Shown in pieces: positions 25,281 to 42,988 of a DNA stretch of 64,000 nt (its first letter is position 1; every line of letters begins with the position of its first letter). The notes under the pieces are model-generated. The model did no database searches and was not told the DNA's origin. It worked only from the letters and a program-made list of their open reading frames with translations. This stretch comes from Enterovibrio baiacu (GTDB taxonomy: Bacteria > Pseudomonadota > Gammaproteobacteria > Enterobacterales > Vibrionaceae), in the NCBI RefSeq assembly GCF_004120195.1, contig NZ_SCHN01000026.1, positions 125 to 64,124 of the forward strand, in the 5' to 3' direction. Position numbers and translations under genes: made by a program.

Positions 25281-25550
25281 TTAGCGACGCAGACCCAGAC
25301 GCTTGATCAGCTCAAGGTAACGGTCAGCGTTTTTGCCTTTCAAGTAGTCAAGCAGTTTACGACGACGCGAAACCATGCGCAGTAGACCGCGACGGCTGTG
25401 GTGATCACCTTTGTGCTCAGCGAAGTGGCCTTGCAGGTGATTGATAGAAGCAGTCAAAAGCGCTACTTGAACTTCTGGAGAACCAGTGTCGTTAGTGCCT
25501 TGTGCGTATTCAGCAACGATTGCTGCTTTAGTTTCTGCATTCAGAGACAT
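25281..25550 (-). CDS. rpsO: 30S ribosomal protein uS15
   Basis: Primary 16S rRNA-binding protein of the small subunit. 89 residues, the standard length. Conserved blocks: [12 protein letters not shown], the [17 protein letters not shown] helix region, [15 protein letters not shown] and the C-terminal [10 protein letters not shown]. It sits between truB and pnp as in E. coli, with its own promoter upstream. In E. coli S15 represses its own translation through a leader pseudoknot; the sequence of this leader was not folded. Confidence 0.98.
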
Positions 25551-25622
25551 AGTCTTTTCCTAAATGTAAAAGGTTATATTTGTGTCAGCCAATCTCTGAT
25601 TCAGCCAACACCCGAGCGGCGG

Positions 25623-31807: not shown

Positions 31808-31832
31808 AATAAAAAAAGGGCCTAAAAGCCCA
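31808..31832 (-). terminator. Terminator 2 between tRNA-fMet and rimP
   Basis: On the minus strand GGGC-loop-GCCC is followed by TTTTTTT. Lies about 13 bp before the rimP start, so read-through or antitermination must allow rimP-nusA expression unless a promoter lies between. Confidence 0.8.
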
Positions 31833-31864
31833 GTTATCCATCCGAATGGTCATCTTCAGATAAC

Positions 31865-31888
31865 AAAAAACCCCGAATTTCGGGGTTT
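31865..31888 (-). terminator. Terminator 1 after tRNA-fMet
   Basis: On the minus strand AAACCCCGAA/TTCGGGGTTTTTT forms a strong hairpin with T run about 76 bp after the tRNA 3' end. Tandem terminators at this place are also known in the E. coli metY-nusA operon. Confidence 0.9.
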
Positions 31889-31964
31889 AATGCAACTGGA
31901 CCCTGATGCCATGGTTTCCCATGACCAGCAACTGTTTTGGTCTCTCTAAACAATTACCGATAAG

Positions 31965-32041
<77 letters not shown>

Positions 32042-32118: not shown

Positions 32119-32205
<87 letters not shown>

Positions 32206-40167: not shown

Positions 40168-41589
40168 ATGGTGCGTTATTGCCTTCTCATTCTTTCTCTT
40201 TGTTTCTCTTTTCGTGCATCAGCGGTGCCCGTGAATACGCTTGAAGCCATGCTTCCTGCGGGCAGCCAACTCGCCCTCTCGGTTTACAACATCGACAGTA
40301 AACAGCAGATGGTTGCGCTGGATGATCAGATTCTACTTCCCCCTGCCAGCACTCAAAAAGTCGTCACCGCACTCGCCTCTGCGCTTTATCTACCTAAAGA
40401 CTTCACCTTCACTACACGCGCATATCGCTCCGGTAAAGACGTTATTTTTTCATTCTCTGGCGACCCAACATTAACGCGTAAAAACATCCAATCCTTACTG
40501 AAAGACATCAAGGCAGCAGGGGTTACCCGTATCAATGGTGATGTGTGGCTGGATGGCAGCATTTTTACAGGCTATGAACGCGCAGTCGGCTGGCCATGGG
40601 ATATCCTAGGGGTATGTTATAGCGCTCCCTCAACCTCTATTGCCCTAGAGCGAAACTGTGTTCAGGGTTCGATTTACAGCGAAAAAGGAAAAACAACGAC
40701 GCGCATTTTTGTTCCCGAACATCAGCCTGTTTCTGTCACCACCGACGCACTCGCTGTGACGAAAGACGAAATGAAAGCCAAGCATTGCGACCTAGAACTG
40801 CACTACGAAAACAACAACAGTTACCGACTGAGTGGCTGCTTGCCACACAGAAGCAAGCCATTACCGCTTAAGTTTGCAGTGCAAAACCCAGAGAAATACA
40901 TGCAAGATGTGCTTTCAGCTGAACTCAAAAAAGTAGGGATACGTCTCGCAGGACAAATCCGCATTGGCAACCCTATCAGCAATGCACCAAAGCAACTCAT
41001 CGCCACGCACTTATCTGCACCTCGCGATGCACTGCTTAAAAAAATGCTCAAACGTTCAGACAACCTGATCGCTGATAACTTACTAAAAACACTGGGGCAC
41101 CAGTACTACGGCCAACCAGGGTCGTTCTCTAACGGCGCAGCAGCCATCAAAGCCATCATGCAAGAACGTGCAGACATTGATTTAACCCAAGCGGTTATTG
41201 TGGATGGCTCTGGGCTTTCAAGAAACAATCGCATGTCCGCAAAGCAACTGATGGACATCATCCACTACACCTATTCCCATCAAGACTTGGGCGTATTGGC
41301 AATGCTGCCAATCTCTGGGGTAGATGGCACGTTAAAGTATCGCAGTAGCGTAAGACACGCGCCTTTAAAGCAGAAACTGAAAGCCAAGTCTGGTTCGCTC
41401 TATGGCAGTTATAACTTAGCTGGCGTGATAAGAAATGATAAAGGACAGGATGTGCTAGTGGTGCAATTGGTCACCAACTACCACATCCCTAGAACGGATG
41501 AGCGCCCGACGAACCTCGCCAGCCCCATTACGCAATTTGAGCGCGAATTGTATCAGGCCTTGCTTACATCAAGTCTAACCACGCGTTAA
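40168..41589 (+). CDS. dacB: D-alanyl-D-alanine carboxypeptidase/endopeptidase PBP4
   Basis: Periplasmic class C low-molecular-weight penicillin-binding protein (S13 family) that trims peptidoglycan peptides. 473 residues (E. coli 477) with signal peptide ending RASA. The three catalytic motifs are present: STQK (about residue 71), SRN within GSGLSRNN, and KSG (KAKSGSLYGS) in the KTG position. ATG 40168 starts right after the porin terminator; its promoter must lie within about 40 bp. The 3' end overlaps that of the convergent mgtE by 26 bp, and I see no terminator between them. Confidence 0.95.
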   Translation: MVRYCLLILSLCFSFRASAVPVNTLEAMLPAGSQLALSVYNIDSKQQMVALDDQILLPPASTQKVVTALASALYLPKDFTFTTRAYRSGKDVIFSFSGDPTLTRKNIQSLLKDIKAAGVTRINGDVWLDGSIFTGYERAVGWPWDILGVCYSAPSTSIALERNCVQGSIYSEKGKTTTRIFVPEHQPVSVTTDALAVTKDEMKAKHCDLELHYENNNSYRLSGCLPHRSKPLPLKFAVQNPEKYMQDVLSAELKKVGIRLAGQIRIGNPISNAPKQLIATHLSAPRDALLKKMLKRSDNLIADNLLKTLGHQYYGQPGSFSNGAAAIKAIMQERADIDLTQAVIVDGSGLSRNNRMSAKQLMDIIHYTYSHQDLGVLAMLPISGVDGTLKYRSSVRHAPLKQKLKAKSGSLYGSYNLAGVIRNDKGQDVLVVQLVTNYHIPRTDERPTNLASPITQFERELYQALLTSSLTTR

Positions 41590-42415
41590 CTGTCATGAAA
41601 TAAATCGCCATCCCGCTGATGTCGACAACGGAAGCCAAAACGGGACTCACGAGCACAGCAGGGTCGAGGCGAAACGTTGTCGCCACAAGCGGGAGAACGC
41701 CGCCTATTGTGGTAGACAACAGCACTTGAATGATCAGCGCCATACCAATCGCTACAGCAATGTCATCTAATGAAAAACCCAACGGGAGTGCTGCGCTATC
41801 ACTGAAGAGCATCACCCTCGCCATGATGACGGCAGCCAGTGCAAACGCGATGACCACCGCCACGCGTACTTCCTTCCACATGACGCGTAGCCAGTGAGAC
41901 GGGCGCACTTCGTTCATTGCCATGGCGCGAACAACTAGCGTGGCTGCTTGTGAGCCAGCATTCCCCCCCGCCGCCGCAACCACGGGCATATAAATCGCCA
42001 ATAAAATCAGCTGGCTGATCGACGCCTCGTAATGCGAAATGATCAGCCCAGAGACAACGCCCAGTAACGCAAGACCAATGATCCAACCAATGCGTTGCCG
42101 AACATGTGACATGACTGAATTCGACAAATAATCCCCATCAGGCTCAACTTCAGAATTGATAAGACCCAGCCCTGTCGCAATTTGCCTCACTCTTACCGTG
42201 TCTCCTGTTTCCGCAAGATCATCAAGTAGTTTTCTGACCAACCCTAATGGGCAGCAATTTAGTACGCCAATGACTTCCGGAACAGGCATGACAGACAACA
42301 ACCGAATTCGGTCTTCTCCACCGTGAACAAGAAACGCATTTTTTGCTGCTTCAATTTCATGCGCAGCGACATGATGGTGCTGGTTTTCCAGCAAGGTGGC
42401 ATTCATTACCGCCAT
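41564..42415 (-). CDS. mgtE: Compact MgtE-family Mg2+ transporter lacking CBS domains
   Basis: Five-helix divalent cation channel/transporter of the MgtE/SLC41 family. The 283 residues consist of a short N-terminal helical region (about 15-105, part of the MgtE N domain) joined directly to the transmembrane domain (about 130-283) with the signature PVVAAAGGNAGSQA. The usual CBS pair between these parts, which senses Mg2+ and gates the pore in canonical ~450-residue MgtE proteins, is absent. Start ATG 42415 behind GGGAGG. The transcript probably has a leader of over 260 nt containing a small ORF and hairpins. Mg2+ is the likeliest substrate, but Co2+ or other divalent ions cannot be excluded. 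Confidence 0.88.
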   Translation of the reverse strand: MAVMNATLLENQHHHVAAHEIEAAKNAFLVHGGEDRIRLLSVMPVPEVIGVLNCCPLGLVRKLLDDLAETGDTVRVRQIATGLGLINSEVEPDGDYLSNSVMSHVRQRIGWIIGLALLGVVSGLIISHYEASISQLILLAIYMPVVAAAGGNAGSQAATLVVRAMAMNEVRPSHWLRVMWKEVRVAVVIAFALAAVIMARVMLFSDSAALPLGFSLDDIAVAIGMALIIQVLLSTTIGGVLPLVATTFRLDPAVLVSPVLASVVDISGMAIYFMTVNAWLDLM

Positions 42416-42614
42416 AGCGAACCTCCCGATTGGCTAGTCCCAGAGATCATCTGGTGATGGGTAACGACCATGAAAATACGCAATCCAGCAGGATTTTGTT
42501 TTTATAACAAAACAACGATTATTCGCGCGAAGCGAGTACTCACCATGCGAAAGTGAAACATAAAAGTTTCTTTGCGTATGTTTACTCAGAGTGTTGGGGA
42601 AGCGCAGGGAATAG

Positions 42615-42651
42615 AAAAACGAGGGAGCATTCCGACCTGGCAGTCGAAATG
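42615..42651 (-). terminator. Terminator-like hairpin in the mgtE leader (candidate attenuator)
   Basis: On the minus strand CATTTCGAC and GTCGGAATG form a 9-bp stem (one G-T) with a 6-nt loop, followed by CTCCCTCG and TTTTTC. It begins 29 nt after the stop codon of the leader ORF and lies about 200 nt before mgtE. The CTCCC after the stem can instead pair with GGGAG within the leader ORF. Confidence 0.5.
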
Positions 42652-42679
42652 TGAAGACACACTTAGGTTACCGCCGGGT

Positions 42680-42724
42680 TTACTGGCCTCCCTGACAACT
42701 CGGAGGATGGTCGATAACGTTCAT
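42680..42724 (-). CDS. Candidate 14-codon leader peptide upstream of mgtE
   Basis: The frame ATG 42724 to TAA 42680 encodes MNVIDHPPSCQGGQ. It is preceded by GGAG six bases before the ATG, a better ribosome-binding site than many genes here. A 5-bp stem (CCTCC/GGAGG) lies inside the ORF. Asp and consecutive prolines near the start recall MgtL-type Mg2+ leader peptides, whose Pro/acidic codons stall or destabilise ribosomes at low Mg2+. That link is inference; no homologue was searched. It ends 264 nt before mgtE. Confidence 0.5.
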   Translation of the reverse strand: MNVIDHPPSCQGGQ

Positions 42725-42896
42725 GGTTTTCTCCAAAAGTGCCGCAGTATTGCGACGGGGCAATATTACGCTTCTTTTGTCTGAGAGAAAACACTCCGTA
42801 GGCGTTAGATCATGAAGATTTAATGACACACCACATGCTGATTAATTCGAACAATAACGCACGAACCTTACATTGCCCTAGCCAATAAAAAGGCAC
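42725..42896 (-). promoter_or_regulatory. mgtE promoter and early leader region
   Basis: About 170 bp between the carB terminator and the leader ORF. It must hold the mgtE promoter, but no strong sigma70 match is visible. A small stem (ATTGC/GCAAT) lies around 42750-42765 just before the leader ORF. I compared it by eye with the M-box (ykoK) Mg2+ riboswitch and could not see its conserved core. Confidence 0.4.
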
Positions 42897-42921
42897 AAAA
42901 AAGCCCGCCATAAAGGCGGGC
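42897..42921 (-). terminator. Terminator after carB
   Basis: On the minus strand GCCCGCC-loop-GGCGGGC is followed by TTTTTT. A second hairpin (GTCGGC/GCCGAC, about 42938-42957) precedes it. Confidence 0.92.
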
Positions 42922-42988
42922 AAGGAGGTTGTTATCTAGGTCGGCTTCCTGCCGACTCATTGATTATGTTTTTGCCTTTCTTGAGAAA

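Follow-up and report, generated by a model that had tools for sequence, protein, structure and literature searches.

A conserved Asp-x-Pro-Pro-Ser leader peptide and a probable start-site RNA switch ahead of mgtE in Vibrionaceae

The Mg2+-linked leader peptides in the papers cited here are, as far as the available portions of those papers go, enterobacterial, and they precede mgtA, corA, or mgtB. On mgtL, which lies before mgtA, ribosomes drop off at an EPDP motif in low Mg2+; the drop-off alters the RNA fold and turns the gene on, with Rho-dependent termination as the output (portions of PMC11282234). In mgtQ, an 8-codon ORF located between mgtC and mgtB of Salmonella, a ribosome destabilized at acidic residues (Asp2 and Glu5) raises translation of the transporter; the ORF overlaps stem region 1, its single Pro is of indifferent identity, and alternative stems (1:2 plus 3:4 versus 2:3) lock or free the start site (excerpts of PMC8092293). 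For corL, ahead of corA, the accessible text of PMC11552253 describes uORF translation that is inverse to transporter expression, two exclusive folds, and Rho dependence, with fewer Pro or acidic residues. A structured RNA that includes the Shine-Dalgarno (SD) and AUG of mgtE has been described as a riboswitch candidate with 32 representatives, in Thioalkalivibrio only (extracts of PMC11109978). Among the matches listed in the open-licence PMC literature, none deals with a leader peptide of mgtE in Vibrio or Shewanella.

The locus analyzed here belongs to Enterovibrio baiacu, in an assembly of 52 contigs, and the window (the whole stretch of DNA that was analyzed, 64,000 nucleotides) comes from contig NZ_SCHN01000026.1. 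On its - strand there follow one another a 1078-amino-acid ORF, which we take to be CarB, a terminator-like site (42921-42903), a 16-nucleotide hairpin, a GGAG site, a 14-codon leader ORF, a 9-bp hairpin, about 210 nucleotides, and mgtE, whose closest named relatives are in three Enterovibrio genomes (95, 92, and 90% protein identity). On the same strand of the window, Rfam marks an S15 leader, a rimP leader, and two tRNAs, at 25494-25612, 31811-31922, 31968-32041, and 32122-32205. We think that the mgtE leader probably holds a conserved leader-peptide switch of the mgtL/mgtQ kind, in which the start-site switch is backed by pair counts. The more specific reading that we prefer, and to which we give about an even chance (roughly 0.5), is a translated leader peptide combined with a two-state RNA switch that governs the start of mgtE translation, ribosome drop-off at Asp-x-Pro-Pro being the event that would free the leader.

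The likenesses to the described systems are several. As in MgtL-type leaders, a short, putatively translated ORF with its own SD stands upstream of the gene for a putative Mg2+ transporter, and the encoded peptide has acidic and Pro residues near its N terminus; as in mgtQ, alternative stems, one of which would lock the downstream start, are indicated by pair counts and an energy model; as in corL, two folds are exclusive and translation of the leader is predicted to run opposite to expression of the transporter; and as in the Thioalkalivibrio motif, the RNA before mgtE is structured up to its SD and AUG. The differences are equally clear. Unlike mgtL, the core carries one Asp in place of the two acidic residues of EPDP. 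Unlike mgtQ, the ORF follows the 1078-amino-acid ORF, its peptide has Asp at position 5 (followed by His-Pro-Pro-Ser) and no Glu, it holds both a local stem strand and the partner of a long-range pairing, and the gene is mgtE. The Thioalkalivibrio candidate differs in being listed as a riboswitch and in its confinement to that genus. What the present leader offers is its spread: it occurs ahead of mgtE, with an invariant motif of its own, in most of the Vibrionaceae genomes that were searched and also in some of their relatives.

An earlier note on this DNA, made from its letters alone, had pointed to a 14-codon ORF with a strong GGAG site in the mgtE leader, and both are where it placed them (Table 1). 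By the comparisons below this ORF is real and conserved, and the finding is larger than first noted: the feature stretches past 42615 and reaches into the mgtE start (42403). No other short ORF of the form x(2-6)-D-x-P-P-S exists on either strand of the 64-kb window, and none turned up when both strands of 39 control loci (138 kb in all) were scanned; the controls include two leaderless loci of a third long-form family, and one control (L289) begins at a contig edge with no upstream DNA. A chance ORF was rejected on this empty scan together with the conservation across genomes and the 136 leader ORFs that were read.

Table 1. Positions of the leader elements and of mgtE in the window
Feature	Position	Strand	Remarks
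Leader ORF MNVIDHPPSCQGGQ and stop	42680..42724	-	14 codons; ATG at 42724, TAA ends at 42680; D, PP, and S invariant in 136 leader ORFs
Shine-Dalgarno GGAG of leader ORF	42731..42734	-	GGAG in 133/136, 6-nt spacing in 132
mgtE, 283 aa, CBS-less	41564..42415	-	PF01769 only; alignment to T. thermophilus MgtE chain limited to residues 296-468
5' hairpin GTCGC/GCGGC near presumed transcript start	42741..42756	-	Homologous hairpin: 4/5 pairs changed on both sides
Stem 1, 5' side GTTATCG, leader codons 3-5	42712..42718	-	Counts are for the homologous stem; window pairing read from sequence
Stem 1, 3' side CGGTAAC, just past stop codon	42667..42673	-	As for the 5' side of stem 1
Hairpin C (9 bp) CATTTCGAC/GTCGGAATG	42628..42651	-	Homologous hairpin: 6/7 pairs changed on both sides; no U-tract directly after, in window
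Helix 3, leader side GGGAGGC, codons 11-13	42686..42692	-	Single folds, pair counts, partner swaps
Helix 3, distal side GCTTCCCC	42596..42603	-	Alignment, single folds, pair counts, partner swaps
Helix 2, leader side CGACCAT, codons 4-6	42707..42713	-	Homologous helix paired in 99.3% of cells, almost invariant
Helix 2, distal side ATGGTCG	42465..42471	-	Overlaps closing stem of mgtE start site
Start-site stem, 5' side TCGTTACC	42460..42467	-	5-bp core paired in 99.3% of cells; two pairs, one double change each
Start-site stem, 3' side GGTAATGA, within first mgtE codons	42403..42410	-	Pair counts
SD hairpin AATC-GGGA-GGTT, loop holds part of mgtE Shine-Dalgarno	42420..42431	-	Near-invariant homologous hairpin, paired in 100% of cells

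From 21 loci we built a covariance model of the leader (R1; 92 positions), which matched 221 of 329 Vibrionaceae genomes, in 7 of 13 genera; one match (G202, E 0.006) lacks the leader motif and was judged false. MgtE of the window type was found at E <= 1e-40 in 210 of the 329 genomes, and when the two tables were compared by hand, leader and gene occurred together in 207 genomes, the gene alone in 3 (G061, G258, and G321), and a leader match alone in 14. In an order-wide sample of 394 genomes the leader model matched 26, of which one (G588, E 0.007) was judged false; the remaining 25 are exactly the 25 that carry the CBS-less gene, which is broken in G260, while 12 further genomes have a long-form MgtE only (E <= 1e-40). 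The earlier note had suggested looking among relatives for a conserved small ORF and stems, and the ORF was present at all 97 mgtE loci fetched by gene position (drawn from the mgtE matches listed in Vibrionaceae, by gene place and diversity), the stems being borne out by the pair counts given below.

The 136 leader ORFs, from 131 distinct contexts, are 14 to 19 codons long and begin with ATG (132) or GTG (4). The conserved peptide with Asp and Pro-Pro that had been anticipated holds throughout: in the core M-x-x-x-D-x-P-P-S, Asp5, Pro7, Pro8, and Ser9 are unchanged in 136/136, codon 6 reads His in 124, Gln in 7, Tyr in 4, and Asn in 1, and codon 3 reads Asn, Asp, Thr, or Val. The Pro codons do vary, Pro7 between CCT (93) and CCC (43) and Pro8 among all four (CCT 74, CCG 49, CCC 11, and CCA 2), so that at the sequence level both positions vary without nonsynonymous change, as in a protein. 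Asp5 is GAC in 134 of the 136 and Ser9 is always AGT, which indicates that a nucleotide-level constraint also acts inside the core. Among the 1,191 Ser codons of the window's long ORFs, 152 are AGT, the codon that Ser9 uses in the window (42700-42698) and in 136/136 leaders. D-x-P-P is also retained in three diverged leaders that were not counted: L116 (MINADHPPY...), L117, in which CTG takes the place of the start and to which the pattern could not be fitted, and L118, which has no in-frame ATG, GTG, or TTG; the last two may be decaying. Upstream, a TAnnnT box at -44 to -47 from the leader ATG in 117/136 is a candidate promoter.

Folded over 485 nucleotides, the window leader is more stable than 100/100 shuffles (z -4.5), and many of 25 leaders folded singly share one long-range architecture. 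We counted pairs in 60 distinct, mostly Vibrio-type sequences from Vibrio and genus g9 groups, chosen for length and diversity, for a structure composed of the 5' hairpin, helix 2, helix 3, hairpin C, the start-site stem, and the SD hairpin. In Vibrio-type sequences, helix 2 joins GACCATC in the leader to GATGGTC before mgtE, and helix 3 joins GGAGAAAAAT to ATTTTTCTCC. The full structure is paired in 95.6% of cells, compared with 92.3% when shuffled and at most 56% when slid, and 15 pairs are changed on both sides, against a shuffled mean of 8.3; none of 500 shuffles reached 15. These double changes fall in hairpin C (6), the 5' hairpin (4), helix 3 (2), the start-site stem (2), and helix 2 (1, at a degenerate sequence). 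In stem 1, which pairs leader codons 2 to 5 with the segment past the stop and is exclusive with the long-range fold, 93.7% of cells are paired, a share that falls to 43% or less on sliding, and 3 pairs are changed on both sides, a number that 7 of 500 shuffles reach. About 30 nucleotides around the mgtE SD and first codons (42403-42431 in the window, and homologous sites) are almost invariant in the 60 sequences, beyond what pairing needs.

The strands of helix 3 change together between genera: GGGAGGC/GCTTCCC in the window, GGGAAGC/GCTTCCC, GGAGAAAAAT/ATTTTTCTCC, and GGGAGAAAAA/TTTTTTCTCCC in Shewanella. When partners were swapped, own pairing was 1.7 to 5.1 kcal/mol better than other-group pairing in 9 of 10 comparisons and not better in the tenth, and same-group partners paired as well as own ones, so that the pairing signal lies between genera only. 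Duplex energies between leader and downstream segments differ weakly from shuffles (mean z -1.3; in 25 of 124 the true duplex outdid each of the 20 shuffles, with 12 of the 136 leaders left out because the start-site pattern could not place them), and helix 2 hardly varies, so covariation is unable to prove it. Taken together, the pair counts support a fold that links the leader over a long range with segments ahead of mgtE, a local stem exclusive with that fold, and an mgtE start that is closed. The pairing scheme of the earlier note, in which GGGAG of the ORF met either CCTCC inside it or CTCCC downstream, survives in part: all three strings are present, but the conserved partner of GGGAGGC is the distal side of helix 3 in Table 1, not the CTCCC at 42627-42623, which by eye is not generally kept in a 25-locus alignment and was set aside.

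Energy models point to a direction for the switch, and with the pair counts they support the idea, also raised earlier, of alternative folds that a ribosome on the ORF would change. Masking a ribosome footprint on the leader made the mgtE start costlier to open, on average by 2.0 to 3.3 kcal/mol in five groups (n = 76, 13, 29, 3, and 8); control masks added 0.0 to 1.8 kcal/mol in four groups and could not be placed in the fifth; part of this effect is built in, since helix 2 and the lock share TCG, and the model is one without coaxial stacking or pseudoknots. Over 60 sequences the mean opening cost was 10.9 kcal/mol for the unconstrained RNA and 10.0 in fold B, and it came to 14.2 both in fold A and with the leader masked; fold A cost more than 0.5 above fold B in 59/60. 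The two folds are close in energy (B is better in 38 and A in 19 of the 60), so fold B is not the assured outcome once the leader has been vacated. With the P site moved along the leader, the opening cost for 64 Vibrio-type sequences was 13.5 to 14.2 at codons 1 to 13, 12.3 at the stop, 10.6 when free, and 12.3 for control windows; for 8 sequences of genus g9 it was 13.1 to 13.9 at codons 1 to 7, 11.4 to 13.1 later, 10.8 free, and 10.6 for controls. For 10 sequences of the window's own group it was 14.9 to 15.8 at codons 1 to 6, no costlier than the control windows (15.6), 17.2 to 17.8 from codon 7, and 15.0 free, and in ten leaders from other contexts masking had no consistent sign. The model thus predicts that mgtE is closed with a ribosome on the leader and open once the ribosome has gone after opening stem 1. 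This predicted sign matches that of the drop-off leaders mgtL and mgtQ, as these are presented in the available parts of PMC11282234 and PMC8092293.

The comparison supports the ORF with its SD, the invariant core, and the stems; the steps of locking and opening we infer. The mgtE start would be locked by TCGTTACC:GGTAATGA around the SD hairpin for as long as the leader is either occupied by a ribosome or tied up in stem 1. A ribosome that opens stem 1 and then drops off at Asp-x-Pro-Pro would leave the leader free to pair with ATGGTCG (helix 2) and with GCTTCCCC (helix 3), and these two helices would take part of the lock, since TCGTTACC overlaps ATGGTCG, making mgtE easier to translate. Consecutive Pro residues in short nascent chains make ribosomes prone to drop-off, according to the portions available of PMC8934632; the single acidic residue of the core counts against the drop-off model. 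Sensing of Mg2+ is plausible, and the likely signal would be low Mg2+, which weakens ribosomes. The mostly marine genera involved live in Mg2+-rich water, which raises the question of why they keep such a sensor. The leader family also offers many natural variants with which ribosome stalling or fall-off at Asp-x-Pro-Pro could be tested.

Other outputs and other signals have to be weighed against this reading. The same leader and drop-off logic might act through Rho-dependent transcription termination in the long leader, leaving the start-site structure secondary. mgtL (PMC11282234) and corL (PMC11552253) operate by Rho, as far as the accessible text of each goes, and the leader is long (about 208 to 391 nucleotides from its ATG to mgtE in the 97 loci); the mgtE start site is among the most conserved parts, however, a conservation that a pure Rho switch would not require, and we regard Rho as the output as unlikely, if still a serious contender. 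That a ribosome parks at Pro-Pro, in response to EF-P supply, prolyl-tRNA, or Mg2+, and sets the fold by its presence instead of its loss, has in its favor that HPPS is an XPPX motif and that all 136 leaders have CCC or CCU as their first Pro codon, the two codons by which diproline synthesis in E. coli is delayed most (extracts of PMC8129111). Yet such stalling strikes us as distinctly improbable: with a ribosome parked on the leader, mgtE is predicted to stay closed, which is the opposite of what an importer required under shortage calls for, and Asp is left without a role. CCT is in any case the commonest Pro codon in the window's long ORFs (234/639), which contain only 11 Pro-Pro pairs, and slow Pro codons were dropped as proof of pausing.

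The near-invariance of the start-site RNA, more than its pairing demands, could also mean that this RNA is itself the sensor, of a ligand, a protein, or an sRNA, with the leader ORF merely tuning it. We hold this to be very improbable, as the peptide core persists where the start-site element is missing (in G258, G321, and the long forms, discussed below) and the leader has no match at gathering score in Rfam 15, Mg2+ riboswitches included, so that a known Rfam family was dropped as its identity; five sub-threshold matches (42894-42979) fall on the terminator that precedes the leader. The earlier note had favored a terminator-type attenuator, in which ribosome position would switch the 9-bp hairpin and TTTTTC. 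Its hairpin stands, 28 nucleotides past the stop and conserved as hairpin C, but the TTTTTC (42619-42614) begins 8 nucleotides beyond the stem, so that in the window a GC-rich hairpin is not directly followed by a U-tract. A terminator scan of the - strand of the window found sites at 42921, 43695, and 42313 and none at this hairpin, and the pairing that is conserved runs to the start site of mgtE; we give an intrinsic terminator almost no credence.

The same peptide core recurs where the RNA and the transporter differ. G258 and G321, which have a CBS-less mgtE and no R1 match, carry MQNVDFPPSLNGIGNN 125 nucleotides ahead of the gene, with the start-site element absent. Long-form MgtE proteins (about 420 to 435 amino acids) of the same clade are preceded by leaders such as MEIDIPPS..., MKKDIPPS..., and MLNDIPPS..., and three Shewanella loci have MKTTDYPPSRKGEK. 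By group, a D-x-P-P-S leader precedes 7/7 loci of a first long-form family, 3/3 of a second, 0/2 of a third, and neither of two Vibrionaceae loci (G061 and G246), or 10/14 in all. One long form aligns to residues 134-470 of the T. thermophilus channel chain, a stretch that includes the CBS pair, and Pfam reported no CBS domain on that aligned long form. The window's transporter does lack the pair, as the note had said, its sole Pfam match being the MgtE transport domain; its further suggestion, that control may have moved to the RNA with the CBS pair lacking, was abandoned in view of the long forms that have the leader, one of them aligned across the CBS region. That the D-x-P-P-S core is found in different RNA contexts ahead of longer MgtEs speaks for selection acting on the peptide. 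Somewhat speculatively, D-x-P-P-S may be a portable translation-abort sensor, kept by nascent-chain selection through changes in the RNA switch, in the CBS region, and even in the protein under control; it would then form a separate class of leader peptide, one that reads out the ribosome's state, and we put this forward as a tentative idea. In eight D-I-P-P-S leaders of long forms (L251-L253, L256, L257, L280, L282, and L283), the CCTCC of the Pro-Pro codons is the complement of GGAGG in the SD of mgtE.

In 14 Vibrionaceae genomes (seven of g9, plus G185, G203, G246, G287, G289, G318, and G325; loci L098, L099, L101, L102, L104-L110, L116, L118, and L247) the leader precedes an ORF of 93 to 141 amino acids that matches the N-terminal part of window-type MgtE only and mostly has one hydrophobic stretch near its C terminus. 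That the controlled protein lacks the transporter domain in these genomes counts against the leader-switch model. Some of the short ORFs look like decay, with in-frame stops in G287 and G318. Six g9 copies gave dN/dS values of 0.15 to 0.33 in 14 of 15 pairs, one pair not being computable, and by this measure the short MgtE N-terminal protein of genus g9 is under purifying selection.
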